DNA of 64,000 nucleotides from the NCBI GenBank assembly GCA_964017185.1, contig OZ024884.1, positions 255,501 through 319,500 on the forward strand. Direction: 5' to 3'. The notes beneath the pieces were generated by a model. The model did not search any database, had not been told where the DNA came from, and saw nothing but the letters and a program-made list of their open reading frames with translations. This document shows positions 11,953 to 46,752 of this stretch, in pieces. How positions within the stretch are numbered: position 1 is the stretch's first letter; each line of letters begins with the position of its first letter. Source of the DNA: Rugalucina vietnamica. Taxonomy: Eukaryota; Mollusca; Bivalvia; Lucinida; Lucinidae. The position numbers and the translations under genes were made by a program.

Positions 11953-12067
11953 ATGGCTTCTTGTCTCATTTTATGTTTTCTTTCACTTTTTGTAATTATG
12001 ATCTCAATTATACTAAGTACTGAAGGCAAATACACACACCCAGGTTTGGCACAAGATTATAAAAATG
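11953..12067 (+). CDS. Gene A exon 1 (signal peptide)
   Basis: Opens with ATG and codes for 38 residues plus the first base of a Gly codon. The first 25 residues are hydrophobic (MASCLILCFLSLF at the start). The donor is G|GTAAGC at 12067/12068. This start was chosen because gene B has an ATG at exactly the same distance (114 bases plus one) from its donor. The sequence is poorly conserved between paralogues, as expected for a signal peptide. Confidence 0.8.
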
Positions 12068-15000
12068 GTAAGCAGTTTTATTTATTATCGGTTAAGATTC
12101 ATTTTCTAACCAACTTCTAATATATTTGGCCCCATTTAGACAATACTGGTCTTTGTATCGACTACCCTGTTGAAAGTTGCAAAAACTCTTTGGCGTCATG
12201 TTGCCAAATTTAAAGGCCTGGGTCACTGACGAGACTTTAATAGTCGAAACCGCGGTATGGCCCATCCCCTTTCTCATTAATGTGTTCACTGCCCTTAAAG
12301 GATCTCAGTTTAACTTTTTATATCACTATGGAAATACACTTTTTTATAAGGAACACACAGCTATGACAATTTTCTAAAAGAAAACATTCAATAAAATTTA
12401 CTCCAATTCGTAATTGTATACGTATGTACACATTTGACACCCCCTCCACCCACCCACAAATAAATCGGAATCATAATTCAACCGTGGAAACTGTGCATCG
12501 GAAATGACTGTGAAAATGTGGGGTATACATGTAACTACATCAGGATAACTTGTCCTTGTGTAATATATACCCCCATTTTACCCCACTTCCATATAGTAAG
12601 TGGGGCATGTATGGCTATAACTATTTTTTTCTTATTTTTGCTCCAAAACATATATTGTCGGTACGCGTTAGAGCCTCGCCGAGGCGGTGCTAACGTGTAC
12701 TCATAATCATTTGCATTGAGCAAAAGTAAGGAAAAATATCTTTTTTTTTTTTTTTCTGCTGAAAATTTGCAATTTTATAGCCATAAATATCTCTGTATAT
12801 TCCATGGGCAAGTTTTCGTAATGGTAAAACTGTAATACTACGGGTAAAATGTTGCCATTGCCAATGTCTTTAGAACGTCTAAGACAACCTTTCACTTAGA
12901 AGCCTCCGTGGTGCAGTGGTTAAGCCACTTGCCTTGTAAACCAGTGGTCGCAGGTTCGATCCCGGGCTTCTCCAGTCCTTCGGATTGAGACTATAAACCG
13001 AGGTCCCGTCTCCATATGACCTTAGCTGTTGGTGGGACGTTAAACCCCAATCAATCAATCAACCTTTCACTTGACCACGGGGGTGATTCAATTGATACCA
13101 CCTGTGCTGTCGTCCGAGACGTTACTGCATATATTGCTGTCGTCCGAGTATTCCGGTTTCCGTCCGAGTACTACGGCTGTCGTTACACAACCAGTACACA
13201 CGTAAAAGTGGATCGCAATCGAATCTGAAGGTATTATTTATATTTTTTCTGCTAGAATGTGTTGTTAGATATTTGTCTATCGTGCAATATGTTTGTACGG
13301 GCTTTTGGGTCGCTAGTTTTCATACAAACACGTGTTTAATCGTAAAATAGCAAAAATCACATAAATATGCAAATACTGTAAAAATCAGCATCTCTCATTT
13401 CTGACCATTTATTGAACAATGTGGAAAACATAACTGCAAAGATAAAACCTTTTACAGTTTTAAAAAAATCCAAAGCAGAAAGGTTTTGAAGGGGTGTTTA
13501 ACTTTTGGTGTTACTGCTGTCGATCAGTTGTAAATATGTGTGATACGGCTGTCGGTTAAACTCGTTACGGATGTCGACAATTTAGAACAGGTGGTAGATC
13601 CAAATATACGGGTAAAACTAAGTTTAAGGCCTCCTAGATTTCAGAAAATGAATGAAACAACATCTGCTTCACTCTGTTCATAATTCTAACGATAAACCAG
13701 TGGGTTGTATCTACACGAACGGTTAGATATTTACATGGCACACCGCCGCCCTGATCAAACCAAGTTATGAATATTGAACGTCGTATATATGTAGTGACCG
13801 ATTGCCTTACTTTCTTAATCATTTTCGCATGCATTATCCAAATAAGAAAGTGTAGTGTATATAACTTAAACTTTGATGAGCGTCACAAAAGAAGACAAAC
13901 TGTGGCGAAAGTGACTGATTGATCCTTTGTGTAATGCACTAGTCATTTGTAACCACGCCCGTCCCCCATCCTCGGGGCGGGCGGGGGATAGCCGTGGAAA
14001 TGAGCGCGGCTTTGACAAAAGTTTTGCCACGACAGTGCGGGGAAAATACCTTGGGTTTGCTTTATATAGGCCAAAAGGTCAGTGAAATAAAAAGATAGCA
14101 GTCTGCGGGGAAAACAGCAGTGGGTTTACCAACAAGCAGTCCTCGCAGGGTGGGGCATTTAGCGAGAATTGCTTTTAGCGAAGATTTGCTGGACCAAGAG
14201 TCAAAGTTCCCGCTATTCCCAGGGGGTGGGGCCCGTTGTTACAAATGACTAATGCATAATACCTTATATATTGCATACTTGAGTTTTCTTCTAGTCGCTG
14301 GTTTTCGAGACTCTCGATTGTCATTAAATGGCACTAAGTGTAATATTCTGCTCTGCGAAACAAGGGTTCAATACTACTTAAATAGTGATGCTGGTCAAAT
14401 TTTGAGTATGCTGTCTAATTTCAAGCTGTGTAGTTTACATATAAAGCATATTATGTGATGTTTTTCATTTTCTCGAGTCCATGAAGTACCACGTGAAAGG
14501 TGAATCGGTACGAAATGGCTCAAGTTTACACTTCAGTTGCCCGCACAGTAAGTATTTGTACTGTTACAGTCTGAATATCCTTTCACGTGCTTCTAAGTAG
14601 ACTCGTCAATCTTTTGACGCACCTGAGGTCAAATTCGAGCTATATATAATTTATGGTCGTTTGAACAGAGTGAATTAGACATAAATTTCCTTTCTCGTGT
14701 GGTCGCTTTAAGCAACTTTACATACAAGTTGGCTTCTTTAAAAAGAAACCAATGAAAAGGTCAGCAGCCGTTTGTTATAAGAGATTCCCTTTTGCTCTAG
14801 AGTTCAGTATTGTTGATTCTCTGGTTCGTCATTAATTTCGATTCTCATACGTTTCAGTTTCGTTTCCTATACATAAATGTCGTTTCTTGTAATGAAGCTT
14901 AACCACTACCAGAAAAAGACCCATAGTGCGATGTGATGGACTAAAAGTCAGCCATATAGAGTTTCTGTAGTTTCTGTACCCCTCGTCAGGGTATATACGA

Positions 15001-18000
15001 TGTAAACCTAGATGCGCTATGATAAGCAGCCACCACGATCGAGACTGCTTGCCAGATATTTACCGCTATTTGACGGGGAGTGTCAACAATTGATAAATTA
15101 AATTGATTGTGGTGAACTGTCTAGTCCCTGTAGACGGGTTCACTAGTTTTTAGTAAGCGCTTTATGTGACAAAACGCGTAATTGAGGGAGAGCAGTCGGT
15201 CATGGGTACACTTTTCTTCATATTCAAAGTAAACACTGTGGAAAAGGTCCTGAGGGACCTTTTCCAATAAAGTAGGGACAGAATGTTTAATCGGTAGTAG
15301 CACGTGCTATTTAACATACTCGTAGTTATAGCGGTAAAATACTGCATGTGTCATTCAAGCTGATACGACAGTTAAGTAGACACCTAAATTTTAATTTTGC
15401 CATTTTTGGGGACGATAGCGCTTTAACCGATGTCGAGTCGTCATCAGAGGCACTAGTTTCAGAGGGGCTGTGAGGAGCCACTGCAGATGGGAGCAAGTAA
15501 TGAACACGGGTGTCACTGAAATCTGTCCTACCACGCTTAACGCATGCTTTAATAAATGGTGAAACTTCGAATTTAATAAATGATACAGTTTTCTTGCGTG
15601 TGTGGTGTTTATATGTAAAGTTGCTTGGTTTGAAGCAAGAGAATAGACAGTCTATACAGTCCTTTTATCAGCTGCAAATGAAAACTATTCAGAAACAAAA
15701 CAAAAAAAAATGCATAAATCGCGTTGAATTTGATTTCAATGGGCAATGTGCTATCTCAAAATACTATCGACAGCCGTATCGTACTGATCAATAAACAACC
15801 GCCAGCCGTATCAGGGGTCAACGACAGCCGTATCACGCTTTTTAAAAACGGCAAATTTGAAGGACGCAACGGGTTGGGGTAATGATTATAGTTTTCAAAG
15901 GCTAAATGGAAAACAAAATAGTCCAGCTACTTTCGCTTATGAGGAATGTTTGCATATGTTGAAAATTAGAAAAGCACGCGAGAAAACAATGTTTTGTACT
16001 CAAAATAATTTCTTGTGATTATCTATATGTTAAGAAAGTTGGAAACACGTTGGAAATAACGATAAATACCTTCTTGACAATTTTCCGTGATAATTGCGCT
16101 GAATAGCGACGAAATTTTGGCCCTGTGGACACTGAAACAGGGGCACTGATGGTAACGACAGCCGTAGTACTCGGACGGAAACCGGAATACTCGGACGACA
16201 GCAATATATGCAGTAACGTCTCGGACGACAGCACAGGTGGTATCAATTGAATCACCCCCGTGTTGACACACGTACGTTTTCAGTAAGTAAATACTAGTTT
16301 TACGTATGTTAAGTATTGATCTTCCTTATCATTCATAGACTACTGTCATGTAGGTGGGCCCAAAATATGCTTTTAAACATTATCTAGTCTAAATCTATAT
16401 CTTATATTTGAATCAGTGAGTAAAGACAACAACCACAGGTTTAATTCAGTTTTTTTCTCTATTTACAGAAAATATTCATAAAACAAGATACCGACGAGGA
16501 ACAAAATATCCGTCACATAAGGGCCTAGCACTTGCAGGTAGTACACGAATAGATTGTGTAATTGAAACTTGTATATTTAATACACTGAAGTAGATTTAAT
16601 TTTTGTTCCACGTGTGGCACAATTAGAGTTTTCTAAACTTGATGACACATGGAGGATGATCAAAAATAACGTGGACTTTTTCTGTGGCTTCTTACAGATC
16701 ACTCAAATGCTTATAAAATACCATGAACATAATAGAATATGTCTAGAATATCCTGGCAAAATATTTGGGAAAAAAACCGGCCTGCTAAAAATCTACAGTC
16801 AAAAAACAAAGGTTACTATGGTCTACCTGGCGCACGTCATGTTTAATTTCGTAAGGTCGTTTACGTTTTATTCAGTTTGGAGAAAACACCCGCTCATGGC
16901 TCACGCCATCTATTCAACATGTACCATTGATAAAATGATTTGTACTCATTTGTGCTTCGGCCAGCGCAATTCTTCCGTCAGTATCCAAAACTCGAAACAA
17001 ATTTACGCTTTTTGCTACACAAATCGCCTCCATCAGGAAAACATGTCCGTGTAATGTTTACCCCCTTGAACCCCACTTTTATATAGAAAAACTGGGGTAT
17101 GCAGGGGTATACCTATTTTTCCTATGTTTGCTCCAAAACATAGATTGTGGGTACTCGTTAGAACCGCCTCGGCGAGGCGGTTCTAACGTGTACCCATAAT
17201 CTATGTTTTGAGCAGAAATAAGAAAAATATCAATTATTTTCAGCTGAAAATTTTCAATTTTTAAAGCTCAAAAAATCCCTGTATATTGCATGGGCAAGTT
17301 TTCGAAATGTCATCTTCAGTTGTCTGCATGGGGTCAACGCCGGAATTACGCATTTACGTCATTAGTGTCGCGCGTTATTTGATTCCTTTTCCATCTTTAG
17401 TATGCTGTTTTATCGACAGAATCACAACGTGTATATTTTTTACACAACTGATTCATTCCATTTGTCTACATTTAGATTATATGTAGATTTAAGTCATGCC
17501 CATTGACGACGTTTTTAACGTTAAATGCACAGAAAAAGCGCACAGTTGATATTAGTATTAAAAAAAAAATACTGCAGTGTACTCTAGGAAGACAGAGTTC
17601 CAGTGGCCAGGCTACATGTACCTATAAATGAATATATTTTAGGGAATGCGATTCACAGGGTGCTGTATAGAGCCAAAGAGATCTTCACCGACGGCTACAA
17701 CAAGGTTTATGTGAAGCCCGGTGGACAGAAGCAGTGCGTCGCAGATTTTCATTCGGTGTCTCCGACAGCAGTAAAGAATCTTAATGAGGTTTGTATAACG
17801 AAAAGGTACAAGTAGGCAAAGATCAGGAAAAGGCGCAATCAGAAAAAGATTCCCACTCCAAAAACCGAGGTGGGAAAAAACCAAACTAACAATCAGGTAC
17901 TTATACCATGAAACAATCGTAAGCCGAATGGGCAGCTATTTTCCCAATAGGTGGCCACTCAGTTACCTTAACTTAACTAAAAATATGAAAACATACATTC

Positions 18001-19000
18001 GAAAATGTTTGTTTGAAAATTTATGACTTTGAAAGTTTGTCTTATTTTTGCTCATAACATAGGTCGTGTGTGCCTAGTACACGTTACTATAGGGATCAAA
18101 CATGATTTTTCATTCACTAATGATTCGCTAGGTCCCGAGGGGAAGTGTTGAAAACCGAGGGCGTATTATTGCATAAATTCTGCACAAAACAAAGAAATAA
18201 TGGTGCACTATATTTTACAGCCTCATCACATTTTCATACGCGTAAAAACTTTCGTTTTTATGCTCGTTCCGGGCGGACTTAAGTTTCTCATTGTTAGCAC
18301 GTGCTTTGCGTGGCGCCCTGTAACGAGCATAAGTAAAAGCCATGTATTAACAGCACGTGCGCGCGTGAATTGCAATATTAATGCATGGTTTTCTCTTCAT
18401 TGATAAACGGCTGTTACATGTAATATCGTGTGATACAGGTAATTATGCAATAATACCGCTTAAGCGACTTGCCAGTTTTTCTTTATGTAATATGTTTCAT
18501 TACACGGATTGTTCTATTCCTCTGCTACATATATCCGAAGTATTTTGTGACAGTACAGACCGGTCTGTGTCGGACCTCGTAGGAAACACACATCGTTGTT
18601 TTTCTCACGCTCATATGTTTAACTCATTTAAGCCTGGTGTCCCTTTTATGGGACGTAGGCAAAAAAAAATAGCCCCAGATGTGACGCCGCAGAACGCGGC
18701 GTCCCATCTGAGGCTATTCTGTTTGCTTACAGAATTTTCATCGAACAATTGAATAAAATTTAAAAATCACTCCTAACACCCCTAAAATAAAAGTGGACTC
18801 ACCCAATTGATAACAATGGGAAAATCCATTCGTCAAATATGGTTTAATTACAGAACACAGTGATGGGACGAGTAGGAAATTTAGAGGTGACGATGAAGGA
18901 AAAGGCAGACAACTCCGTTCTTATATTACGCCAGCAATATGGATCCTATTCTTCACAGGCCAACCCTCCGCTTGACTATATTTTTATATATAAACATTAA
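11953..19000 (+). CDS. Gene A: small secreted protein, three exons (11953-12067, 17643-17788, 18854-19000)
   Basis: Spliced coding length is 408 bases, giving 135 residues. Residues 1-25 are strongly hydrophobic and read as a signal peptide, so the product is probably secreted. The mature part contains TDGYNKVYVKPGG (about residues 54-66), a single cysteine (QC), the motif DF-x-SVSP, and a C-terminal LDYI-x3-Y just before the stop. Intron 1 is phase 1 and intron 2 is phase 0, with GT donors and AG acceptors. The decisive evidence is gene B (39760-46752), which has identical exon lengths and phases; exons 2 and 3 together agree at 56 of 96 residues. I do not recognise the family. The PGG...DF...SP...V layout faintly recalls nuclease-type C-terminal domains of bacterial polymorphic toxins, but that is a memory-based guess. 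Regulation is unknown. Confidence 0.85.
12086..12320 (+). repeat. Family C repeat, partial
   Basis: Shares TTCATTTTCTAACCAA, GCCAAATTTAAAGGC-like and CCCATCCCCTTTCTCATTAA strings, plus AAAGGATCTCAGTTT, with 44470-44695 and 44820-45060. No coding capacity. It starts about 20 bp after the gene A exon 1 donor. Confidence 0.7.
12539..12824 (+). mobile_element. MITE family B (diverged)
   Basis: Imperfect ends (AGGATAACTTGTCCTTGTGT on the left; CATGGGCAAGTTTTCGTAAT on the right) surround a palindromic core with GCCTCGCCGAGGCGG. A T-run (12741-12757) lies inside. Confidence 0.75.
12898..13059 (+). mobile_element. SINE with tRNA-Thr-like head and AATC tail
   Basis: The first 75 bases fold like a tRNA: box A-like TGGTGCAGTGGTTAAG, anticodon region CTTGTAA (UGU, Thr), box B GGTTCGATCCC, and a perfect 7-bp acceptor pairing AGAAGCC/GGCTTCT. 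A non-tRNA body follows (GGGACGTTAAACCCC) and a (AATC)n tail. It is bracketed by the 13-bp direct repeat CAACCTTTCACTT (12885-12897 and 13060-13072), which proves retroposition. This type of body and tail is common in bivalve SINEs. It lies in gene A intron 1. Confidence 0.93.
13076..13186 (+). repeat. Left terminal inverted repeat of the 3.2-kb transposon
   Basis: Contains two copies of GCTGTCGTCCGAG and one TTTCCGTCCGAG, and ends in TACGGCTGTCGTTAC. It is a perfect reverse complement of 16152-16262. Confidence 0.95.
13940..14251. mobile_element. Nested GC-rich MITE
   Basis: Ends read TAGTCATTTGTAACCACGCC on the left and TAGTCATTTGTAACAACGGG reversed on the right, flanked by ATGCA on both sides. 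The interior is much more GC-rich than its surroundings (GGGCGGGCGGGGG near 13976) and non-coding. It inserted into the 3.2-kb transposon. Confidence 0.7.
16152..16262 (-). repeat. Right terminal inverted repeat of the 3.2-kb transposon
   Basis: Exact reverse complement of 13076-13186. The outermost base of the element is G at 16262, followed by the TTGAC duplication. Confidence 0.95.
16263..17031. other. Gene A intron 1 sequence without assigned feature
   Basis: A 146-codon + frame (16614-17054) is present but runs into the MITE at 17032. It shows no domain or conservation clue within the window, so I treat it as intronic. Confidence 0.5.
17032..17309 (+). mobile_element. MITE family B, near-consensus copy
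   Basis: Left end AGGAAAACATGTCCGTGTAA and right end TTGCATGGGCAAGTTTTCG form imperfect inverted termini. The core is a long palindrome around GAACCGCCTCGGCGAGGCGG flanked by ACATAGATTGTGGGTAC on both arms. Non-coding. Confidence 0.9.
17643..17788 (+). CDS. Gene A exon 2
   Basis: 146 bp between acceptor TTTTAG (17637-17642) and donor GAG|GTTTGT. It completes a Gly codon split by the phase-1 intron, then encodes 48 residues including TDGYNKVYVKPGG, QC and DFHSVSP. It aligns without gaps to 43831-43976: 30 of 48 residues are identical, while in the 13-residue TDGYNKVYVKPGG block there are 7 synonymous codon differences and no replacement. That pattern shows coding function in both. Confidence 0.9.
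17802..17999 (-). repeat. Family A terminal fragment
   Basis: The reverse complement reads from TTAGTTAAGTTAAGGTAACT to GCCTACTTGTACCTTTT, the terminal 190-200 bp of family A. It begins 13 bp after the exon 2 donor of gene A. Confidence 0.85.
18548..18608 (-). repeat. Fragment of MITE family E
   Basis: Matches the reverse complement of 43207-43273 in blocks such as ACAGACCGGTCTGTGT and GTCGGACCT. Confidence 0.6.
18618..18846 (+). mobile_element. MITE family D abutting a splice acceptor
   Basis: Near-complete copy starting AACTCATTTAAGCCTGGTGT with the GACGCCGCAGAACGCGGCGTC hairpin core. Its right end (CATTCGTCAAATATGG) is about 7 bp before the exon 3 acceptor, so the element probably supplies the branch-point region of gene A intron 2. 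Confidence 0.85.
18854..19000 (+). CDS. Gene A exon 3 and stop
   Basis: After acceptor TTACAG (18848-18853), 48 codons and a TAA (18998-19000). It aligns codon for codon with 46606-46752 of gene B, both ending LDYI-x2-Y-x-H-stop; 26 of 48 residues are identical. Shared motifs are G-x-VGNL, DN/DS-x-V-L and LRQ. No canonical AATAAA is seen in the next 300 bases. Confidence 0.88.
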   Translation, partial: NTVMGRVGNLEVTMKEKADNSVLILRQQYGSYSSQANPPLDYIFIYKH

Positions 19001-19394
19001 GGCCTAGTTTCTACGGATCTTTTTCTTGACAAAGTAGGTGTAATGCAGAAAAATATGCTCATGTAAACTCAATTCTGTGGCGAAGCTTCATTGCCAAATA
19101 TCTGTGACAAAGGTGAACGAGATAAGAAATATAAGTAATCTGTGCTGTGCGTGGACGCAAACTCGTTGCCAAAGTTTCTGTTAGAAATAATCTTCGTAAG
19201 AGAAACATTGTCCGTGGAAGCCCCTAATTAGTAAAGCGGTAGCTCCCGTTGCTGAGTTGCTAAGGCCGATGATTTCATCATAATTCAATAATTTCACCAG
19301 TGTTTCCAGTCATGGTTCGAGCATCGATGAACATGTTGGACAAGCCAAATTCTGCTTGTTGGTGAGCCACGGAGGTGTGTCAGGTGGTGTTATT

Positions 19395-19860
19395 GCCATA
19401 TATTTACATTTTTATTGTAATCGCCCTAGATGAAAGTATCTTTCCTGATGTTCTTCATTTCCCAATGAAAAACATTATGTCACGTGATCTAAAGGCCACG
19501 CCTATGGGCGGGGCGACGTCAAAACCCATCCAGTAACGTTTTTTGTTTACTCTTCTTGTCGTGACGTTGGTCGCGTATCGCCATGACGTTAGGCGCGAAA
19601 ATTTGACGTTTTGGCTGTTCCAAAATTACGTTAAGTCGGATTTAATGTCAAATAACATGAAAATGAACGGTGAAATGCGCAATTAAAAATCTGATACTTG
19701 ATTGATAATATAAAATGTAAATATAAGTATTGAAATTTAAATTTTAGCTTCCACTGGATGATGAAAAACATTAGCTGTTTTAATGTCTCCAAGAAGCCCT
19801 TCGGGCTTCACAGACATTAAAACAGCCTAATGTTTTTCATCATCCAGTGAAAGCTAAAAT
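19395..19860 (+). repeat. Palindrome-tailed repeat, copy 1
   Basis: Body from TATTTACATTTTTATTGTAA through CACGTGATCT and GGCGACGTCAAAACCCATCC, ending in a 118-bp palindrome (19743-19860) with loop GAAGCCCTTCGGGCTTC and arms ATTAAAACAG... The same layout recurs at 24796-25262. Non-coding; possibly a foldback element. Confidence 0.85.
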
Positions 19861-19917: not shown

Positions 19918-22900
19918 CAATTTTTTTTTTATTTTTCCTTTTCTTGTTACACTCAATTTCAACATAATATACAAAGCACAAATACTTGATATCAACATAT
20001 AGTATGGTACATCAACAAATTGTTTTGTTCATCAGCACTCTCAACAGTTAGGTTGCTACAATTTCATGTCTGAGATAGATAAAATACAATATATGTTTGA
20101 AATAAACTAAATATTATATGTCTATATTTGCCAGAAATAAACTAATTATCGTCTATATCCTGTTGTCTTAATTTTTAGCCATAAAGTAATGAAATAGAGA
20201 TGACCATTTGCCTAAAAATTTATCAAATGTATTATTCAATTTTGAAATATACATTTCGTTCACAAATTTTGATTTAACATACAATTCAAAACCCAAAATA
20301 TTTAAGGTTTGTGTATAAAACTTATTCTTATATATATAATATTTTGCAAGAATAGTTAAGTAGTTTATTAATGAACTCTTTGAAAAACTTGAAAACAATA
20401 TGTTTTTATCATTTATTTCCAGAGTTGTGTTTATTTTATCCGTTAACCATCTTTTGAAATTTTTCCAAAATTCTTTAACTAAATCGCATCTTGCAAATAA
20501 GTGCATGATACTTTCACTTTCCTTATGACAATATGAGCAAAGATCAGTTTCTTTCTTTTTTATTTTTAATAGGAATGAATTTGTTACCAATATTCTATGA
20601 TTGATTTTGAATTGAAAGTCTCTCAATTTTATTTCCTTGACATATTTAAGATTCCTATTATAGACTTTCATTTCTTCGCTTGTAATGTCGCCTAGTTCCT
20701 TAGTCCATTTATTTGTTAATAGTAATTGGTTTACTGAAACTATTTTATCGTAAATTGACCTACAACCTTTCTCGTCCTTCAAAATAAATTTAATATAAGG
20801 GTTTATTTGAACATTATACTTCAAATTTATACAAATATCAGTATTGGCATTAATCTTTTCTTGCCATGCTCTAGGTATTTTCCTTATAACTGCCTCGTAA
20901 TCCAAAAAAGTTCCCCTTATTTTGTATATTTCTTTTAATCCTTCAAATGTATATACGTTGCCATTACTATCAATAAGGTAATTAACAGTTCTTATACCTT
21001 TATCAAACCAATGTTTATAGAGAAAATTGTCCGTATTTGATAAGTAAGAATTGCACCATATGGGAGAACTAAGGATATCATCTAGATCTTGAATTTTGAA
21101 GGAAGAGTAATATTTATGCAGACTTTCTAAAACATCTTTCCAGAAAGGGTTATGTCAGTCCTTACTGAGAAATCTAAAGTATGTATCCCCTAGGCTACAA
21201 AGACTATTAAAATTTATATTTGGTAGAGTACTCCAATTATTGTTATTAGAATTTGTAATTATACGTCTTAACCATGTAACCTTTAAAGATGTTATAAAAG
21301 CTTTAACATTTGTCATTCTCAAACCTCAGGCTTCAATATTTTTTACAATTTGCATTCTACTTATTCGATCAGGACCTTTATTCCATAAGAATTCAAATAA
21401 CATTTTTTCTAAAGATTTAACTAAGGAACCTGGTGGGTTCGGTAATGCTAAAAACAAATAGGCAAATTTAGACAACATTAATGACTTAATAATGGTTACT
21501 CTTCCAATTAAAGTTAATTTTCTTCTGGACCAAGTCTTAATCATACTTTTGATTTTTTCTAAAATAATGTCCGAGTTCTGGTCCCATATATCAAATACTT
21601 CTGCGGTAAAAACCACCCCTAAAATCTTTATAGGATTTTGTTCCCAATCTAACTTAAAATTTTTACACATTATTTTTGTTGATTTACCCATAGATCCTAT
21701 CCATACAGCTCTTGTTTTTTCTAAGTTAATATTCAGGCCTGACATATTATAAAATTTATTTAATATAGATACAGCGCTATATAGTGAAAGTTCTGACCCG
21801 TCTAAAAACAACTGAGTGTCATCAGCATATTGACTTAATTTGTATTCTTTACCATTTATTTTAATACCTTTCACATTTTCATCATTCCTAATCATTAAAC
21901 CCAATATCTCTACACACAGGATAAAAATATATGGAGAAATTGGATCACCCTGCCTGCAACCTCTTTCTAAATAAAAATATTCAGATATGAAACCATTTTG
22001 AATGATACATGATTCTACATTTGTTTGAAAAAGTTTAATCCATTTTTTAAAAGATGGTCCAAAATTATAATAGTCTAATACTTTATGTATAAATTTCCAG
22101 GAAATAGAATCGAATGCCTGTTTAAAGTCTATAGATAATAATAGACCTGGCATATTTTGTTGTTTTGTTTCAAATAAAATATCATATATTAATCTTATGT
22201 TTTCACCAATGTATCTACCGGAAATAAAGCCTTTTTGATCTTGATAGATTATATTATTAAGGACTTTTTTCAATCTGTTTGCAATAGCTGACGACATTAT
22301 TTTATATATAACATTTAAAAGAGAAATTGGTCTCCAATTTTTTAAAAGGTGTCTTGGTTTATTTGGCTTAGGTAGACAAGTTATAATTCCTTGTTTTTGT
22401 GTTACTGATAGTAGTCCATTTTCATATGCGCAATTTATAGATCTTAAAATATATACCCCCAAATCCTGCCAGAAAAATTTAAAAAACTCAACCGTAAAAC
22501 CATCATTGCCAGGACTTTTTGAATTTTTCATTGATTTCAATGCTTCGGCCAATTCTTTATATGTTAGTTCACCTTCTAAATCATCTGCTTCCTTTTGACT
22601 TAATTGTTTTGGGTTAGTTCCAATTATTGCTTCAATGGGGGTATCATCAATTTCAATAGCTTCTTTATATAAGTTTTTGTAATAGTTTTTTTGTACTTCT
22701 AATATATCTTTTGTTCCATACACCTCTTCCCCATTTTCATCTATTAAATATTGAATAACTTTTTCTTGGTAGTTTCTATTTTCTAGATTTAAGAAATATT
22801 TTGTAGGTTTCTCTCCAAGTTCTTCGTATCTACATCTTGACCTAAGCATTACTCCTTCTATTTTCTTTTGTCTAATTTCTCTTAATGCTTCATGTTTTTC

Positions 22901-24787
22901 TTGTAATAATAATATTTCCTCATTTGAGATTTCATTTATATTTGTTTGGACCTTTTCTTCTAAATGTTTAATATCTTTTTCTAATTTTACTTCTTTTTCT
23001 TCACTTACTTTCTTTTTATATGAGCTATATTTAATCGTTTCGCCACGTATTACTAAAAGGATTGTCTCTAAAAGCAATTGATCATTTATTGCAAATTTCC
23101 TTTTTTTATCATTTTCAATTTTATCGCTATTTGTTTCAAAGTTGTTATTATCATATGTGTCATTATTACTTGGAGTGTTAACAGTATGTTCATTAAGGCT
23201 ATATCTATCAATATTTTCTTTAATAATGTTGTGTACTTTTTTAACATAGTCTTGATCTTTCAGTAATGAATTATTAAATTTCCAGTAACCATGGCCTTTT
23301 TCGTTATCAAAATTTATTTGCAGCCTTAAAAGAACACCTGAATGATCGGTTCGATAGCCAGGAACTATTTCACATTCGTGAAGAAAGAAAAACATATCTG
23401 AGCTGATCAAAAAATAATCTAAGCGAGCTTGTTTCTTTTCTGGGTTTAATCTTTTCCAAGTAAAACCTCTTTTTTCCTCATTTAAAAATCTCCAGGCATC
23501 CATATAATCCATATCTTTTATAAAGTGTAATACCTCAGATCTAGCATTAGGGTTATTTATATTTTTATAATTTTCTGTATCAATACTTGGGTCAATAACT
23601 AAATTCCAGTCTCCACATATTACTACGTTATCACACTCAAACTCATGTATCTTTTGTTTTAAATTTTTATAAAATTGTGGTTTGTCCTCATTTGGCCCAT
23701 AGATATTAACTAAAATAATTTTTTGTTTTTGTATGGACATTTCCAAAATAAGAAAATTGCCATTAGGATCTCGTACTACTTTAGTTACAGCCTGGTCAAA
23801 ATTATTATTAATCAAAGTCATTACGCCCCTTTTAGTACTTGTCAGACCACTCATATAGATTGAATACCCCCATTCATTTTTAACAAAGTTTTCCATTTTA
23901 TTCTCCAGATGCACATCCTGTAAGCATAAAATATTATATTTTTTCTTCCTCAGATATTGGAAAACATCCCTCCTTTTCTGGGAACAATTTAAACCTCTTG
24001 TATTCTGGCTGTAAATAGTTATGATATCAGCCATTTTCTAGGTTTGCATCTTCTGGTCTATTTATTTGGCAACCCAACCATGAGAGCACTGGTGATCGAC
24101 TATTAAGCAATACAGTATCTATAATGTTGAAAAAAAGTGTAAACATAAACATAACATATAGAAAAGCAATCGTTTCCAGGATTCACAAAGCACGGCGCTT
24201 AGGTTCCACTGACTATGTAATATATTCATTTGAATTAAAAGGCACATAATAAGCATAATTGACTGCAGTTACTATAAACAGATATTTTTCCTTTGGAAAC
24301 TACATTCTTTCCTGATTACCAGTGTGTGTATGCTCAGACAAGAAACAAAAAGTAAAGCTGGAAACCAATCTCACTATATTTATATGCATTGATTTTCTAA
24401 TTATAGACTACTATATTTATCCATAAATATTGGAATTCCAGTGTGTATGTTCAACAAGAAAACCTGTCTATGTTCCAATTTGGATAAACAAGCACAGGGT
24501 TTTAACCTGTAATGACCCAATGGCTAAATCTTCAGATTTAGAAGGTTAAAACAATATAAGACTCTTTTTAGTAAATACCACTGGCCAAAGTGCTATAATT
24601 CAGCTACAACTGACCCATAACTTTGTCAGTATAGTGTTTTGAAATAGCTATTAAAAATATCTTCTGATTTTTCAACAAAACAAACAAGTAATTCTTGTTT
24701 CATATACAATGAGCAATAAAAACACTATATGTATGTAGTTTTTGCGCAGATATTTATAAATGAGGAACTTGTCATTACATGAACTAA
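19875..24787 (-). mobile_element. L1/Tx1-like LINE, minus strand, with target-site duplication
   Basis: The 41-T run at 19875-19915 is the poly(A) tail read on the other strand. CTGAATTTCAATCCTT occurs at 19861-19876 and 24788-24803 and is the target duplication. ORF2 occupies 20168-24034. The 750 bp upstream of it (24035-24787) contains no ORF1 of 60 codons or more, so the copy is 5'-truncated or its ORF1 has decayed. It inserted at the junction of two palindrome-tailed repeats. Confidence 0.92.
20168..24034 (-). pseudogene. L1/Tx1-like ORF2 (endonuclease, RT, zinc finger) with two in-frame stops
   Basis: One frame runs from ATG at 24034 to the stop at 20168, 1289 codons, broken only by TGA at 21326-21328 and TGA at 21155-21157; there is no frameshift. 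Endonuclease motifs: SQNTRG (9-14), CGDWN (140-144), ARLDYFLIS (203-211) and RTDHS with the catalytic Asp-His at 230-231. Reverse transcriptase: SIDFKQAFDS, RQGDPISPY and YADD at 736-739. The C-terminal zf-RVT-like finger is C-x2-C-x8-H-x4-C (1166-1183). The first stop sits where GGL normally occurs, so a single substitution explains it. The product would nick DNA and reverse-transcribe; this copy cannot make a full protein. Confidence 0.93.
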
Positions 24788-31310: not shown

Positions 31311-31409
31311 GTACACATCATTAAATTTTCATATTCTCGAATAATAATTATAGAAACTAAAGAAAACAGTAGAAACAACAAAGGGAATACCGAATAAACT
31401 AAAATATAT

Positions 31410-31446
31410 GCATGTAGGATACTTTATATATGCATGTAGGATACTG
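31410..31446 (+). repeat. 22-bp minisatellite, short block
   Basis: About 1.7 units of TATATATGCATGTAGGATAC(TT), continued at 32187 after an intervening family C dimer. Confidence 0.85.
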
Positions 31447-32186
31447 GTGTTGTGCCGTGTGGCGGCCCTAAAAAGTCTCCCCGTACATCATCCATAGTGC
31501 AGATTATATTTTTCTTTTGATTCTTTGAGATCAGTGAAAATATTTGGAGTATTTCAAATATATTGTATGTTAAGAATCACCATCTTAACAGAATTTAGAA
31601 TATTTGGCCTCTTTTGGAATATTAGTCTTTGATTTAGACTATACTTGTGTAAATTCTAGAAATTGCAGCAATCATGAATGTCTGGCTTTCGCTGCCAGTT
31701 TTGTAAAAGGTCACTGATGAAGGTTCATTACCCGAAATTGTACAAAATGGCCCACCTCTCTTTGAATGTTTTTACTGCTTCCAAAGGATCTAACAATTAT
31801 ATTTTATTTGCTATTACTGCAGCTGGTGTTGTGCCGTGTGGCGGCCCTAAAAAGTCTTCCCGTACATCATTCATAGTGCAGATTATATTTTTCTTTTGAT
31901 TCTTTGAGATCAGTGAAAATATTTGGAGTATTTCAAATATATTGTATGTTAAGAATCGCCATCTTAACAGAATTTAGAATATTTGGCCTCTTTTGGAATA
32001 TTAGTCTTTGATTTAGACTATACTTGTGTAAATTCTAGAAATTGCAGCAATCATGAATGTCTGACTTTCGCTGCCAGTTTTGTAAAGGGTAACTGATGAA
32101 GGTTCATTACCCGAAATTGTACAATATGGCCCACCTCTCCTTGAATGTTTTTACTGCTTCCAAAGGATCTAACAATTATATTTTAT
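31447..32186 (+). repeat. Tandem dimer of family C
   Basis: Two units of about 370 bp (31447-31822, 31823-32186), each starting CTGGTGTTGTGCCGTGTGGC and ending with CCAAAGGATCTAACAATTAT. It interrupts the 22-bp minisatellite. Related copies are in gene B intron 2. Confidence 0.85.
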
Positions 32187-32362
32187 TTATATATGCATGT
32201 AGGATACTTTATATATGCATGTAGGATACTTTATATATGCATGTAGGATACTTTATATATGCATGTAGGATACTTTATATATGCATGTAGGATACTTTAT
32301 ATATGCATGTAGGATCCTTTATATATGCATGTATGATACTTTATATATGCATGTAGGATACT
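32187..32362 (+). repeat. 22-bp minisatellite, about 8 units
   Basis: Unit TATATATGCATGTAGGATAC(TT), nearly homogeneous; single-base variants GGATCC and GTATGATAC occur in units 6-8. Confidence 0.95.
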
Positions 32363-32363
32363 T

Positions 32364-37231: not shown

Positions 37232-37478
37232 AATATATGCATGTAGGATACTTTATATATGCATGTAGGATACTTTATATATGCATGTAGGATACTTTAT
37301 ATATGCATGTAGGATACTTTATATATGCATGTAGGATACTTTATATATGCATGTAGGATACTTTATATATGCATGTAGGATACTTTACATATGCATGTAG
37401 GATACTTTATATATACATTTAGGATACTTTATATATGCATGAAGGATACTTTATATATGCATGTAGGATACTTTATAT
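37232..37478 (+). repeat. 22-bp minisatellite, about 11 units
   Basis: Same unit as at 32187; a few units vary (TACATTTAGG, GCATGAAGG). It is followed directly by TTTCATTGACTAGTTAGAG, the start of another family A copy. Confidence 0.95.
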
Positions 37479-38692: not shown

Positions 38693-39699
38693 ACGAAATT
38701 TGGTGTATTTTTGCACCAAGGACATTTCAGCCTTCCTTTACAGGTGAGAGTGGTCGGTAAATGTATTCTACTTCTATTTTTACATGAAATTGGCATTTGT
38801 AAAGTTACTGACTACCCACAGCAATAAAAAGCCATTTTCCACTTTTTGCCGTGTGGCGTCTCGTTGAATTAATTAAAAAATAAATAGTTGACCATGTCAC
38901 AGCGAGCTTGTAGTAATCCATATATAATACACTTAAGTTAAAGTTTTGCCTCATTTTTGACCATTCTACGGGTCTTTGAAAATGAATCATACGGCACAAT
39001 TGATTTTTTACAAAATTTATGACGAATATGTCACATCACGTGACGTCATATTTACCATCTTTCATCTATACGGCATTGCAGCAGTCCCTCCCAGGCTCCT
39101 GGGACAGTGAAAGGTAGACGCCGGTCTGATCAACCGAACTCTTCACGTCAAGGCACTAATGTCTCTCGAGATTTGACGTAAAGACGCTATATTACGCCGA
39201 TAACGTCGACCATGACCATTCAGACAAGCTAGCATTATTATTAGGCAATCAATGCAACTGGCAAAACTTTTGCTTTTAATGAGATTGCAATGCTCTTTAT
39301 GCCAAGGAGCAAATTGTAGTCGTGCTCAATATTATTTGCAGTTTTTGATTTTATGGGTATTGCTATATCAATGACTGCTGCTCTCACAGTACTCATTATT
39401 TTGATACAAAATTCACAACCTAATTTGCTTGCAAACATATCAATGTTTATGTATGTCAAATTTCACCAAAATCGAAGTTTTATAAATATGAAAAAAAAAA
39501 TGAATTACAACTTTTCCGTTTCTAAAGCTTTTCAGTGTACAAAGCATATGGTTGTTCATTAATATTAATGAAATAACCGGCAAAACAATGAACAAACAAA
39601 ATGTCTTGCGACTGGGACAGTAAGTGTGAAGGAACCAAATTTCAGCTATCATTACTACATATGCAGGTTCATGGACATGTACATGTACGTATGTGCTTT
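38693..39699. other. Sequence upstream of gene B
   Basis: No ORF supported. A CACGTGACGTCA string at 39037-39048 combines an E-box and a CRE-like site about 700 bp upstream of gene B; whether it acts is unknown. Confidence 0.4.
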
Positions 39700-39730
39700 G
39701 AAATTTGATCAGGAATAACCGTATCGTGTG
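39700..39730 (+). promoter_or_regulatory. Block upstream of gene B conserved in gene A
   Basis: Partner of 11896-11926; 25 of 31 bases agree, all differences are transitions. It ends 29 bp before the ATG. Confidence 0.55.
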
Positions 39731-39759
39731 TCATAGATAAAGAATGTTGCAATAACATC

Positions 39760-39874
39760 ATGGCGTTAAGACGTGTTTTGTTAAGTATAATGTTTATTTC
39801 TATGTACCCGGCCGCGGAAGTAACTAACACGATTAGTGATTTCAGAGTAAATTCCAGTCCACATCAAAGATATG
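39760..39874 (+). CDS. Gene B exon 1 (signal peptide)
   Basis: 38 codons plus one base; donor G|GTGAGA at 39874/39875. Same length and phase as gene A exon 1 although the protein sequence has diverged. Confidence 0.82.
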
Positions 39875-42179
39875 GTGAGATATAATATTTATGTCTGTTT
39901 CAGTTTTAGTTAAGTTTAGGTAACTGACTGGCCACCTTTTGTGAAAATAGCTGCTCATTCAGCTTACGATATGTTTTCATGGTAAAGTGTCTGATTGTTA
40001 ATTTATTTTCCCACCTAGGTTTTTGGAGAGGGATTCTCCTTCTGATTGCGCCTTTTCCTGATCGTTTCCTACTTGTACCTTTCTTCGAATGTTAACGTAG
40101 AATATAAGAATCTTACATATGTGTCAGGTATGGATAGACAAATCTGTCCCGAGGGTCACAGTTTGGCATCACGAGACTCGCCGAGTGATGCCAAACTGTG
40201 ACCCGAGGGACAGATTTGTCTATCCATACCTGACATGAATGATGGATTCTTTTTCTTGCACGCCGTAATTCGGCGAAGCTTCATTCTTATACTATTTACC
40301 TAGAAAATTGCTACAGTGGCGGCGTCCGCCATTTTGTATTAAAACGTTTTGACGTCATCGTGACGTTTGCGCTTAGCGACGAAATTACATGACGTCCAAT
40401 ACAACCAATGTTAAAAAAGAACACTTGAACGCAGCGTGCGACGGGGTGAGATAACGAGGGTGAGATAAGAATTTCTTTCATGGGGTAAAACGTTGGATTT
40501 CTCTATCTGATGTGCAAGAACAAATTGTCACTTGTGCATTCTGTTATGAGAACATGCATTGTGCAAAAGCAGGTACAATGGCTTCTCCCTGTGAAAGAGC
40601 GAGTCATCTTGACATTTATTCGCGTTACTAAAATGATGCGTCTATATCATTTTTTCTTACATACTTCTATCCGATATACAGATAGAAAAATTCCGGTATT
40701 TTAGTGGTGGTAGATAAATCGATCTTACACTGCTGGCTTGGTTGCTCATACAAGGTAAGAAAAGCACGCGACTAAATTCGATCGCAGCTACTTGCAGCAA
40801 TAATGTTCAACAAAACGAGACTAAATTGGTGTGAATTCATTGTGTATAATCTTGATTCACACTCGTTTTCAACGAAACACAAATCAAAACTGCATCTCTT
40901 TTGACTTTGACGATTTATTAACATTTCCCACTGGAACGGATGGACCCTCGGGTTAAGATTTTCCTATCTCCACTGACCACCCATGATGGAATCTATTTAG
41001 CCCCTATCTGCCATGTGATTTTCGGCTGGGATTTTTTAATATTTTGGGTTTTGGGTTTTTAAATTAAATTATGTCGATTCCCATCCCCTCTATTCTTACA
41101 CCATTAACTACCTTTTTGTCATTATTGTACTAAATAATAAACGTGTATGTAAAATGTATGTAAAATGTGTAAAAAATGCATAATCATCAGAAAAACATAT
41201 CCGTGAAATGTATACCCTCTTAAACCCCACTTTTATATAGAAAAACTGGGGTTTGCAGGGAATACTTAATTTTCTAATTTTTGATTCAAAACATACATTG
41301 TGGGTATTCGTTAGAACCGCCTCGGCGAGGCGGTTCTAACGTGTACCCACAATGTAGGTTTTCAGCAAAAGTATAAAAAAATAACAAACTTTTTCCAATG
41401 AAAATGATACACGTGTATGTTAAATGTATGTAAAATGTATGTAAAATGTGTAAAAAAATGCATATTATCATCAGGAAAACATATCCGTGAAATGTATAAC
41501 CCCTTAAACCCCACTGTTATATAGAAAAAAAACTGGGGTTTGCAGGGGATACCTAATTTTCTAATTTTTGATTCAAAACATATATTGTGGGTATTCGCCG
41601 TTAGAAGCGCCTCGGCGAGGCGGTTCTAACGTGTACCCACAATGTAGGTTTTGAGCAAAAGTATAAGAAATATCAAACTTTTTCCAATGAAAATTTTCAA
41701 TTTTTACAACTTAAGAAAAATCTATATTAAACTAGAAAAAGTGCCTTGAGAGGCACGTATACCCCCGGCTGATAGCCACCAAGCCCCCTTCCCTACCCCC
41801 TACCTAAGCAATCCAGCACATGCTCACCCCTGACATTGAACCTCACATCACCAACGAAAAACAGTACCCTTATCAAGTACATTTTAGAAACCACCAAGTC
41901 CCCTTCCCTACCCCCTACCTAAACAACCCGGCACATGCTCACCCCTGACATTGAACCTCACATCAACGAAAGACAGCACCCTCATCAAATACATTTTAGA
42001 AATAAGCAGTGTAAAGTACTTTACATACAAACATGGGGAAGTGTAGTTTTAGAATGACATATCTATTTTAGAGCGGTATACAGAGCTGACGTGTATACCC
42101 AATCTAGGACATAAGCGCGGACATTATGGGTCAGGTCCTCAGTCCTAGATTGAAATGAAATTAAAATGTCATTCTTAAG

Positions 42180-42213
<34 letters not shown>

Positions 42214-45200
42214 AAGATGTCCTAGATTTTGACCTCTAGTCCCACCCCCAGCATGTACCCTAGTGTCTAATGTCATTAGAAACAAGGCAAACCTTATAGA
42301 GTACCTATGGGGCAAGTATGAATGATTTCTTAACATGATAGTAAAAAAAGTACAGAAAATACAATTATTAAAGAAGTTCTAGATTTTGACCTCTAGCCCC
42401 CCCCCCCCTCCCCCCGCACGTAGACCCTAGAGTCTCAAATTTACATGGTACCTATGGTCTAAGTATGAATGCGTTCTGGCAAGACTTAGTGGATGTCAAG
42501 AAAACAGACTTACAGAAAGTTTATCATGGTATATATCATATAAAAATGTGTCCTAGATTTTGACCTCTAGCCCCACCCCTGGGGACGGTAACCAGGATTT
42601 GGTGACATGAATATGAAAGCAAACCCTAAAGGGTATCTATGAACTATATAAGAATACATTCCTATGATTGTTTGTTAAGATATGAACTTAAGAGAAGAAA
42701 CATTAACATTGTAAACAGCACATTTTAAAGGTGACCTAGATTTTGACCTCCAGCCCCACCCCCGGGCATGGACCCTGGGGTCCGAACTCATGGAAACAAA
42801 GCAAACCCTATAGGGTACCTATGGTCCAAATATGAATAGTTTCTGACCATTGGTTCATGAGATATACACCTCTAGAGAAACTTTAACCAAAACTTTGACA
42901 TAAATTCTACGAACGTTCCGGAATTACGAACGAAGAAACGAACTAACGAACGAACATACGAACGGACGAACGGACGAACGGAAAAGCGAAAACTATATAC
43001 CCGTCGGCATAAATGCCGGGGGTATAAATAATATATCACGGGTATGTTTTCGTAATGCAAAACTGTCCTTGGTTGTTCTTCTGTTTTGTAGATGATTTCA
43101 ATTCAGTGAGACGACGGCGAACTTCAACAGGTACCACCGTACAAGGCTTGAAACTGGCAGGTACATATTGCGGGTTAACCAGTGTAAAATACAATAAAAT
43201 TGAGCCGTCCCGTGGAAAAACCAACAAGTTGGTTACCGACCAGGTCCAACACAAACCGGTCTGTACTGTCACAGACGCAGGCTAGAAGCTTGAAATTTCG
43301 GATTTAAGAAGAAGAGGAAGTGTAATATCCGTGTAGCGGAAACAAAGGCGCTGATCAGCTTCGCGGTTACCGCGAAGTTGATCTGCGCCTTTGTTTTCGC
43401 ATAGGCAGATTGTTGGTTTTCCCACGAGGCGGCTCAAATATAACGGTTATCACAAGAGATTATGACACGAATGACGATTTGAGTTTGTCCTTTGACAACA
43501 GTTTACCATCATCATATTGCCTTTGTTGAGTAGCACTTGCCTGTACGAGCACGTGTAATAATACGGCTATACCGCTTTACCATTTTTCGCACGAGCGGGT
43601 AAATAACGGTACATGTGAATAAATGCAATCAGTAGAGGCAAACTCTAAAACTTGGGATAGCGTTGCACATTGAAATAAAATTAAAACTGATATCCTTTAA
43701 AAATAAGCAACAATATCTAAATGTTTGCAGTAAATACGTCATAGCTGTAAACCCTAAAACGCGGGTGAGTCGATATTGTTTCCTTAGATCTACGAACGAT
43801 TTATGTTTTTATCTGTTGTCCTTCTCTTAGGAATAGCCATAAACAGTGTACTAAAGGTGGCAAAGCAGATCTATACTGATGGTTACAATAAGGTGTATGT
43901 CAAGCCCGGGGGACGAAAGAAATGTTACCAAGACTTCTATTCCGTTTCTCCCAAGAAAGTCACCAGCATAAATGGGGTATGCATGGTCACACTACATAAC
44001 TGATGTGTTTGTAGTGATATGATGGAGAGTTTGCCGTATACTATAATCGTGGGAAAACCAACAATGTGGTTTCTGAACAGGTCCGACACAAACCTGCCTG
44101 TACAAGCACAGAAAAGAGCTAGAAGCTTGAAATTTCGGATTTAAGTAGAAGAGGAATTGTACTATCCGAGTAGCGAAAACAAAGGCGCTGATCAGCTTCG
44201 CAGTTACCGCGAAGCTGATCTGCGCCTTTGTTTTCCATATGCAGATTGTTGGTTTTCCCATGAGGCGGCTCATATTATTAGACAAATAGGTTACTGTATG
44301 GGCGGCACCTCATGAATTCTTTAGGATCTCAGATACATTTTTATTTGCTATTACTGCAGCTGTAGATGTGCCGTGTAGCGGCCCTAAAAAGTCTCCCCGT
44401 ACACCATCCATAGTGCAGATTGTATTTTCGTTTTGGTCCCTTGAGATCAGCGAAGGTATTCTGAGAAGACAGAACAAAATTATCTGTTTAGATCCATTTT
44501 CTAACCAATCTTCAATATGGATTATAAGTCTTTAATCAACTATCTTTTGTGAATGTTGCAAAATTACAGTATTTCTCTTTGGCTCCATTTTGCCAAATCT
44601 ATAGGGTCACTGAAGAGGCTTAAGTAGCCAAAACCACGGCATGGCCAATCCCCTTTCTCATTAATATGCTTCCTGCTCTTAAAGGATCTCAGTTTTTTTT
44701 TTTTGGTTTTTTTTTTGCTATTACTGCAGCTGGTGTTGTGCCGTGTGGCGGCCCGTGCAGATTATATTTTATCTGTTGGCCCTTTGAGATCAGCGAGAGT
44801 ATTCTGAGAAGTCGGAAAATAATTATCGGTTTAGATTCATTTTCTAACCAATTTTTAATATATTGGGCCCTATTTGGATTATAAGTCTTTTTATCGACTA
44901 TCCTTTTTGAATGTTGCGAATTTACAGTAATGCTCTTTGGCTCCATGTTGTCAAATCTATAGGGTCACTGAAGAGTGAAGGGGCTTAAGTAGCCGAAACC
45001 GCGGTATGGTCCATCCCGTTATTCATTAATACGTTCACTGCTCTTCAGGATCTCAGTTTCATTTTTATTTATTAGACCTGTACCACTTTTCATATAGGTA
45101 AAAGCTAAAGGGATACAGTTCAAAGATTCAACTCACAGGTTTTCCGATAGGAAATAAATATGAAATAGGAATTTGCCTTATTCACTGGATTGGACAACAT

Positions 45201-46752
45201 ACAGGCAGCTGATTTCTGACGGAAAACATGTGACAGCGGTCTGCGATTAGCTCGCCTTTTCTATAATCTCCCAACCTGAACAAATGGACTAGCCGACCCC
45301 GCCCAGATATGAATAATAAATTTGCCGCCTATACAGTAAACTATTTGCCAAATAATATATACACTGAATATATTTATTTGGTTCGGCTATTGACCTGTGC
45401 GATCTTCTTTTGGGAACCAGATACCGATTTCTGTAGTCATATAAACACTGGTCTATTTATGGTCATGGAAATCATTAGGAAAACATGTCCATGTAATGTA
45501 AACCCACTCGAACCCCCACTTTTATATAGCAAAACTGGGGTACGCAGGGGTATACCTATTTTTCTTATTTTTGCTCCAAAACATAAATTGTGGGTGCTCG
45601 TTAGAACCGCCTCGCCGAGGCAGTTCTAACGTGTACCCACAATCTATGTTTTGAGCAAAAATAAGAAAAATATCAAAAATGTTCAGCTAATTTTTTTTAA
45701 TTTCTAAAGCTCAAAAATCTCTGTTGATTGCATGGGCAAGTTTTCGTAATGTTATGGTTATGGAAATGAATACCAGATTTCCTGCTCATAAGTTTGAAAC
45801 AAATAACGATAAAAGCAGTTATAATTCGGCAAATAGGTCACTGTATAGGCGGCAACTTTAATATTCATATCTGGGCGTGGTCGGCTAGTCCATCGGTTCA
45901 AGTAGGGAGATTATAGAAAAGTCAAACTCAGTCAGCCTGGACCGCTTTCACATATTTACCGTGAGAAATCAGCTACCTGTATTTTGACCAATCCAGTGAA
46001 TTAGACAAACTCGTATTTCATTCTTATTTTCTAACGGAAAACATGTGAGTTGAATCTTTTAACTGTATACCTTTAGTCTTTTACTAAGTCAAAAGTAGAT
46101 CATACCCAGTAACGTATTCATGAGGTAACGCCCATACAGTGACCTATTTGCCGAATTATACATGTACGGTAATATAACAATAATCACATGTGTGATCAAA
46201 GGGGAAAATGAACATCGCATATACATCCGATGTGACAGAAATGCGTGCGTTGTTTTTTTAGGTGAGGTTAAGGCCCTGTAAAATCGATTTAAATCTCCAG
46301 TAATTTTATATTACTAGTCGCTCCAATGCGATACTTCTGTTGTGGTTCTTTTTGTTTTGTGTTTCGCAGTCGAATTTTTGTGCTGTTTGAACCTTGTATA
46401 CGTTTTAATACTTTTAGTTACGTTCGCGTAACTGTGTTGCCGCCTATTGAGAAATATCTGCTCACTCAGCTTACGATATGTTTTCTAAGTATAAATACCT
46501 TATTGTCAATTTAGCTTTTCCCACCTCGGTTTTAGAGTGAGATTTTCATTTCTATTTGCGCCTTTTCTTGACCATTGCCTACTTGTACCTTCTTTTTAAT
46601 TTCAGCACACACTCACTGGAAAAGTAGGCAACTTGGTGATGACAATAGAGGAGAAAAGCGACAGTACTGTTCTAACATTACGCCAAGTCCAAGGCAGTCT
46701 AGCTTCCAATTCAAACCCAGACCTGGATTATATTGTAGTGTATCGTCATTAG
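39760..46752 (+). CDS. Gene B: paralogue of gene A (39760-39874, 43831-43976, 46606-46752)
   Basis: Spliced length 408 bases and 135 residues, exactly as gene A. The N-terminus (MALRRVLLSIMFISMYPAAE) reads as a signal peptide with a plausible cleavage after YPAA. The mature chain shows TDGYNKVYVKPGG, one cysteine (KC), DFYSVSP, G-x-VGNL, LTLRQ and LDYIVVYRH. Intron 1 is phase 1 and intron 2 is phase 0. Genes A and B lie 21-28 kb apart in the same orientation, which suggests tandem duplication. Polyadenylation signals AATAAA at 46806 and 46824 follow the stop. The introns are filled with MITE families B and E, a foldback element and family C. Function not recognised; a secreted effector or defence role would be a guess. 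Confidence 0.87.
39903..40083 (+). repeat. Family A terminal fragment in gene B intron 1
   Basis: From TTTTAGTTAAGTTTAGGTAA to TACTTGTACCTTT, starting about 29 bp after the exon 1 donor. Confidence 0.85.
40122..40235. repeat. Near-perfect 114-bp palindrome
   Basis: Arms of about 52 bp (TGTCAGGTATGGATAGACAA outward; GTTTGGCATCAC inward) around the loop GAGACTCGCC. The following 200 bp include GACGTCATCGTGACG, reminiscent of the body of the palindrome-tailed repeat. Such arms would extrude as a cruciform or give dsRNA if transcribed from gene B intron 1. Confidence 0.92.
40236..41186. other. Gene B intron 1, unassigned
   Basis: No ORF or terminal repeats recognised. TATGTAAAATG-type short repeats appear near 41140. 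Confidence 0.4.
41187..41728 (+). mobile_element. Two tandem copies of MITE family B
   Basis: Copy one (41187-41405) and copy two (41469-41728) share the flanking AAATGTATGTAAAATGTG block, so the pair arose by local duplication of a MITE plus flank. Each contains GAACCGCCTCGGCGAGGCGG or a one-base variant. The right end of copy two (GGGTATGTTTTCGTAATG) lies at 43040-43057, displaced by the next element. Confidence 0.85.
41758..43026. mobile_element. 1.27-kb element with TATACCCCCGGC ends and internal tandem repeats
   Basis: Inverted 12-bp termini TATACCCCCGGC / GCCGGGGGTATA. Inside: a doubled block of about 118 bp (41775-42002), a 32-A run (42180-42211), four units of about 150-185 bp each beginning CCTAGATTTTGACCTCTAG (near 42224, 42374, 42550, 42735), and a GAAC/GGAC microsatellite (42930-42985). 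Elements with short inverted ends and central tandem repeats (pearl-like) are described in bivalves. It is inserted in the second MITE B copy. Non-coding. Confidence 0.75.
43201..43436. mobile_element. MITE family E
   Basis: Ends TGAGCCGTCCCGTGG and, reversed, TGAGCCGCCTCGTGGG. The inner palindrome is around GCGCTGATCAGCTTCGCGG. In gene B intron 1. Confidence 0.88.
43831..43976 (+). CDS. Gene B exon 2
   Basis: 146 bp between acceptor CTCTTAG (ending 43830) and donor GGG|GTATGC. Encodes 48 residues after the split Gly codon: AKQIYTDGYNKVYVKPGG, KC, DFYSVSPKKV. The ORF that extends 5' into the pyrimidine tract (MFLSVVLLLG) only looks like a signal peptide; the exon 1/phase evidence shows it is intronic. 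Confidence 0.9.
44048..44272. mobile_element. MITE family E, left end truncated
   Basis: Left CGTGGGAAAACCAACAATGT, right CCCATGAGGCGGCTCA. Starts about 70 bp after exon 2 of gene B. Confidence 0.82.
44316..45066 (+). repeat. Two family C copies
   Basis: Copies at 44316-44705 and 44716-45066, each with GCTATTACTGCAGCTG, TGCCGTGT(A/G)GCGGCCC and a terminal AGGATCTCAGTTT. A T-run variant (44693-44717) joins them. Confidence 0.8.
45475..45751 (+). mobile_element. MITE family B
   Basis: Left AGGAAAACATGTCCATGTAA, core GAACCGCCTCGCCGAGGC, right TTGCATGGGCAAGTTTTCG. Sits in the centre of the foldback element. Confidence 0.9.
46255..46592 (+). repeat. Family A copy next to gene B exon 3
   Basis: From TTAGGTGAGGTTAAGGCCCT to TTGCCTACTTGTACCTT, ending about 13 bp before the exon 3 acceptor AG. 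More diverged than other A copies. Confidence 0.85.
46606..46752 (+). CDS. Gene B exon 3 and stop
   Basis: After TTTTTAATTTCAG (ending 46605), 48 codons and TAG (46750-46752). Alignment with gene A exon 3 is gap-free. The encoded end includes GKVGNL, TVLTLRQ and LDYIVVYRH. Confidence 0.9.
   Translation, partial: HTLTGKVGNLVMTIEEKSDSTVLTLRQVQGSLASNSNPDLDYIVVYRH

Follow-up and report, generated by a model that had tools for sequence, protein, structure and literature searches.

Small secreted antimicrobial proteins and ribonucleases of animals are typically cysteine-rich and disulfide-bonded, and orphan secreted proteins are common in matrix, mucus, egg-coat and seminal tissues. The BECR fold of some ribonucleases measures near 100 residues and combines helices and strands (alpha+beta) with an antiparallel sheet. 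Transfer of bacterial toxin domains to animals has a precedent: PMC3482391 reports at least 14 polymorphic-toxin domains in metazoans. Here we describe two genes, A and B, predicted in a stretch of 64,000 nucleotides, which as a whole we call the window. Our preferred reading, to which we give a probability of about 0.4, is that A and B are working paralogous nuclear genes of a small family encoding a secreted cationic effector, most likely of host defence.

Judged from their sequence, A and B are two real, paralogous three-exon genes for a small protein without a recognised family. Their predicted exons and flanking signals are as follows.

11896..11950, + strand: gene A, conserved block before the ATG (5'UTR and/or core promoter), 41/55 bases identical to 39700-39754
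11953..12067, + strand: gene A exon 1, with ATG and hydrophobic leader, 38 codons + 1 base; donor ATG/GTAAGC
17643..17788, + strand: gene A exon 2; acceptor TTTTAG/GGA, donor GAG/GTTTGT
18854..19000, + strand: gene A exon 3, including the stop codon; acceptor TTACAG/AAC
39700..39754, + strand: gene B, conserved block before the ATG, 41/55 bases identical to the A block
39760..39874, + strand: gene B exon 1, with ATG and leader, 38 codons + 1 base; donor ATG/GTGAGA
43831..43976, + strand: gene B exon 2, identical in protein to exon 2 of database entry P0002
46606..46752, + strand: gene B exon 3, including the stop codon; modelled as a four-stranded sheet, best pLDDT 81
46806..46829, + strand: gene B, AATAAA signal present twice, at 54 and 72 bases past the stop codon

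To read the products, the six exons were cut and joined in silico. Each gene gave one open frame of 135 codons plus stop, without a frameshift, in agreement with the product of about 135 residues proposed in the first-pass annotation of this DNA. The proposed layout of 115, 146 and 147 coding bases was recovered at these coordinates in both genes, as were the shared intron phases (1, then 0), and all four introns have GT..AG edges (5575 and 1065 bp in A; 3956 and 2629 bp in B). The same annotation held that a simple long-ORF scan misses all six exons; this stands except for exon 2, which a 60-aa scan lists within ORFs of 70 aa (A) and 66 aa (B).

The conserved blocks upstream of the two genes align without gaps; the A block stops 2 bases short of its ATG, the B block 5. 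Random window pairs scored as high in 23 of 19743 cases (70-nt pairs) and in 14 of 1978 (200-nt pairs), and we take most of these to reflect the repeat richness of the window. A 26-bp core of the block occurs at these two sites only in the window, with up to 3 mismatches allowed. On this evidence the block probably anchors the starts of both genes. Downstream of gene A, the nearest signal of the AATAAA type within the 2.5 kb searched is an ATTAAA at 19682, about 0.7 kb away.

Comparison of A and B points to an old duplication whose core selection has preserved. Over residues 39-135, which include the split codon, 57 of 97 residues are identical (blastp E 1e-41); with the split codon left out, the gap-free agreement of exons 2 and 3 is 56 of 96 residues, as had been counted before, and the codons of the TDGYNKVYVKPGG block do differ by 7 synonymous changes and no replacement. 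By the method of Nei and Gojobori, dN over the mature part is 0.33 and dS is saturated. A pairwise codon model (our own script, F3x4) gave omega 0.091 for exons 2 and 3 together (dN 0.31, dS 3.4), with omega = 1 rejected at 2 delta lnL 50.4; exon 2 alone gave omega 0.091 (2 delta lnL 33.9), and exon 3 alone reached the boundary, with dS unlimited (2 delta lnL 19.9). The dN/dS check that had been suggested for the paralogues thus yields about 0.09 for exons 2 and 3, far from 1. These results show that exons 2 and 3 are under strong purifying selection. An intact frame, GT-AG introns in matching phases and protein constraint are all present in the A/B pair.

Exon 1 behaves differently from this core. 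It had been called diverged, which is true of its protein, for which a confident alignment is impossible (43/115 bases identical; the codon model is saturated and its estimate without meaning), but not of the DNA directly upstream, where 41/55 bases agree. Searching the window with A by tblastn recovered B exon 2 at 1.6e-16 and B exon 3 at 7.6e-15; no third copy was found there, the matches besides A and B being at chance level (E 0.66 and worse). By blastn within the window, exons 2 and 3 of each gene match solely their counterparts in the other (E <= 0.001), and exons 1 of A and B match only themselves (E <= 0.1). That the exons form part of a repeat was ruled out by this blastn comparison of all six with the window.

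Repeats are plentiful around the genes and, together with the spliceosomal introns and ORFs for LINE-type reverse transcriptase, indicate a eukaryotic source. They may resemble repeats of marine invertebrates, bivalve molluscs among them, and the word animal is used here on that basis. One family (17801-17915; 46512-46597) has one end 12 bases past the 5' splice site of the second intron in A and another 8 to 16 bases before B exon 3, abutting the tract that precedes the splice site; the spread depends on whether the edge is taken from the repeat listing or from a conserved GTACC. The idea that this repeat created the introns was rejected, as it fills only part of each intron and its side differs between A and B. 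Two elements of LINE type, both carrying endonuclease and reverse transcriptase, lie at 3-5354 (+), where an ORF containing a PHD finger comes ahead of the element, and at 21329-24037 (-). A 22-bp unit (ATATATGCATGTAGGATACTTT-like) recurs in arrays at 31404-32363 and 37233-37478, one of them adjoining a 379-bp tandem duplication at 97%.

A probable young LTR element spans 50890-59598, as suggested by its 2132-bp direct repeats (50890-53020 and 57467-59598; 99.86% identical) and, read by eye, TG..CA ends, ATAT flanks and a primer-binding-like stretch past the first repeat; its internal ORF at 54576-55052, the one ORF tested, matched nothing in Pfam at E <= 0.01. The Rfam model RF00031 identifies a SECIS element at 49128-49195 (+), with 38.2 bits against a gathering score of 35 (folding energy -34.3 kcal/mol, z -3.3), and a second copy at 10525-10592 (-) scores 34.3 bits, just under the gathering score. 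Each sits in its own copy of a dispersed repeat, the two copies having about 155 bp in common; the repeat is perhaps a retroelement bearing a SECIS, or a copied selenoprotein 3'UTR.

The proteins of A and B are probably secreted, to judge from their predicted leaders. Mean Kyte-Doolittle hydropathy over 11 residues is 3.25 in A and 2.23 in B, and together with a simple cleavage rule it gives a strong leader in A and a weaker signal peptide in B. The mature chains are basic (pI 9.2-9.6) and hold one conserved cysteine each, so that the description "single-cysteine" is right for the mature part and wrong for the leader of A, which has two more. A cysteine-rich antimicrobial or RNase A-type identity was considered and set aside, each mature chain having one cysteine where several conserved ones would be expected. 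Modelled alone, exon 3 forms a four-stranded antiparallel sheet (pLDDT 81 for the best model, 52-55 for the other four), and exon 2 alone gives a poor model (pLDDT 52). Of the 50 structural-neighbour rows for the exon 3 model, 16 are, to judge by their titles, nucleic-acid-binding sheets; these neighbours have Z scores no higher than those of unrelated chains, and the fold matches are generic. Such a sheet would fit a toxin-like fold and many others.

The view that the family is unrecognised was upheld for the libraries searched. Pfam has no match for either protein and NCBIfam none for A; for B, NCBIfam gave a partial, rhodanese-related match (E 0.17, 11.5 bits where the cut-off is 115), which was rejected. 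Among the PHROGs there is no match for the mature part of A, and three families of unknown function for that of B (best E 0.016 over 22 residues) were discarded. PADLOC matches the mature part of neither. Sequence matches in the PDB were partial and were dismissed (best E 0.22 with B alone, 1.2 with an A/B profile). In the protein database, searched through shared five-letter words and hence weakly for remote relatives, whole B drew 4 candidates, none at E <= 1, and B with an X tail drew 35 word-sharing candidates (about 300-945 aa), none at E <= 10.

Mobile and microbial sequences were searched as well. Plasmid matches by tblastn (E <= 10) comprised one record for B (E 8), two for A (best E 0.2, within a urate hydroxylase) and one for the consensus (E 4), all rejected, and the phage collection held no match. 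A scan with the A/B profile produced 70 viral-contig and 31 genome-contig pattern matches, none confirmed at 1e-3; the genome-contig scan relied on two 8-residue patterns followed by tblastn at 1e-3 and reaches mainly close relatives. Motif patterns, whose spacing (19 N) was verified on the window itself, found 0 stretches in viral contigs; a looser version picked out 10 there, and a third pattern 1. All 11 were translated and no relative was seen by eye, several being methyltransferase-like and the last an unrelated ORF. Among the papers listed as matches (titles and abstract starts) none concerns this family, and five motif strings were unmatched. The searches covered family libraries, the protein database above and these DNA collections, and an annotated "uncharacterized protein" of the family may exist in eukaryotic protein databases.

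Further copies of exon 2 did emerge when the A/B profile was run against the protein database: 3 of 12 candidates reached E <= 10, all of them exon 2 ORFs, one of which (P0001) comes from gene A in the window itself. The other two, from ENA assemblies, each show exon 2 only. In P0002 the exon 2 protein is 100% identical to that of B; the nine residues ahead of it equal the translated end of the window's intron, and the downstream intron departs from the window at about the fifth base, which makes P0002 an allele or a copy of recent origin. P0003, with an exon 2 78-79% identical to that of B, is a further family member. At both exon edges A and P0003 diverge from B, apart from some similar residues of P0003 upstream (VVL) and a Val-Cys shared after the donor, which lends soft support to the edges of exon 2. 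A and B seem to belong to a small gene family, of which at least one other copy exists elsewhere.

Under our preferred reading, A and B would each encode a 135-residue precursor: exon 1 supplies a leader that has diverged strongly, and exons 2 and 3 supply the conserved, basic domain of about 97 residues that follows it. The leader would route the protein into the secretory pathway, and the helix, strand and helix predicted for exon 2 would pack on the exon 3 sheet to form one compact alpha+beta domain. The protein would then act, extracellularly or within a vesicle, as a small cationic effector, most likely in host defence, where it may bind or cut nucleic acid or attack microbes. The libraries searched yielded no relative of known function; the effector role is read from size, charge and leader, and the defence reading draws on these together with constraint.

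A bacterial source for the mature domain, namely descent by horizontal transfer from the C-terminal effector domain of a polymorphic toxin (RHS/CDI type), with the transferred domain having since gained a leader exon and introns and now serving the animal, is possible, and we regard it as doubtful; the first-pass annotation had raised a toxin-type origin at low confidence. Exon 3 models as the kind of sheet that such an origin predicts. The predicted succession of a helix, a strand with a KPGG turn, a helix with a DF pair and a four-strand meander resembles that of some RHS C-termini. Polymorphic-toxin domains in metazoans, as reported in PMC3482391, supply a precedent. A neighbouring immunity gene would not be expected of a domesticated domain. 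Against this, the fold matches are generic, Pfam and PADLOC give no match, the PHROGs and NCBIfam matches (E 0.016 over 22 residues and E 0.17) are weak and partial, and nothing convincing came from plasmids, phages or bacterial genomes (tblastn 1e-3) or from the 35 word-sharing proteins. We leave the origin at this grade because the sequence tests are negative or weak and are themselves weak tests. The fuller proposal is likewise tentative: the two genes would represent a new family of secreted animal effectors, for which a bacterial contact-toxin domain was captured, joined to a leader exon, split by an intron and strongly selected as a weapon or regulator.

A lineage-specific animal protein outside defence, such as a shell or mucus matrix component, an egg-coat or seminal protein, a signalling ligand or a protease inhibitor, with a fast-evolving leader on a conserved fold, would equally be small, probably secreted, single-domain and part of a small paralogous family, and no enzyme family is convincingly matched in Pfam or NCBIfam. 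Against it, a core omega of 0.09 is below expectation for reproductive or matrix proteins, and inhibitors do not usually have just one cysteine; we consider this reading unlikely. That A and B are decayed copies or exon-like repeat pieces is very improbable. The introns do hold many repeats, repeat-family ends lie close to two splice edges, and a repeat member at 39866-40012 (65% identity) covers the final 9 bases of exon 1 in B. Yet both genes lack frameshifts and premature stops and keep their splice phases, omega is far below 1 (2 delta lnL 50), and the exons match nothing but each other in the window (blastn E <= 0.001). Non-functional copies are thus close to refuted.

A and B add a constrained, probably secreted family that is recognised by none of the curated libraries searched and that came to light through exons shorter than long-ORF scans can pick up. 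Were the mature domain a captured bacterial toxin, they would give another example of interbacterial weaponry put to use by an animal, in a domain small enough for direct expression and assay; if not, they are an ordinary lineage-specific gene family. Our verdict is that A and B are ordinary in kind unless a toxin origin is shown.

Besides P0002 and P0003, two known systems stand closest. A and B differ from the secreted antimicrobial proteins and ribonucleases of animals in having one cysteine and no Pfam match, and are like them in leader, small size and positive charge. From the BECR-type toxin domains (barnase-EndoU-colicin-RelE) of PMC3482391 they differ in lacking a detected sequence match and in being stand-alone proteins with their own leader and introns; they share with these domains a length near 100 residues and, as far as the exon 3 model reaches, a putative alpha+beta make-up with an antiparallel sheet, and such domains have a precedent for transfer to animals.
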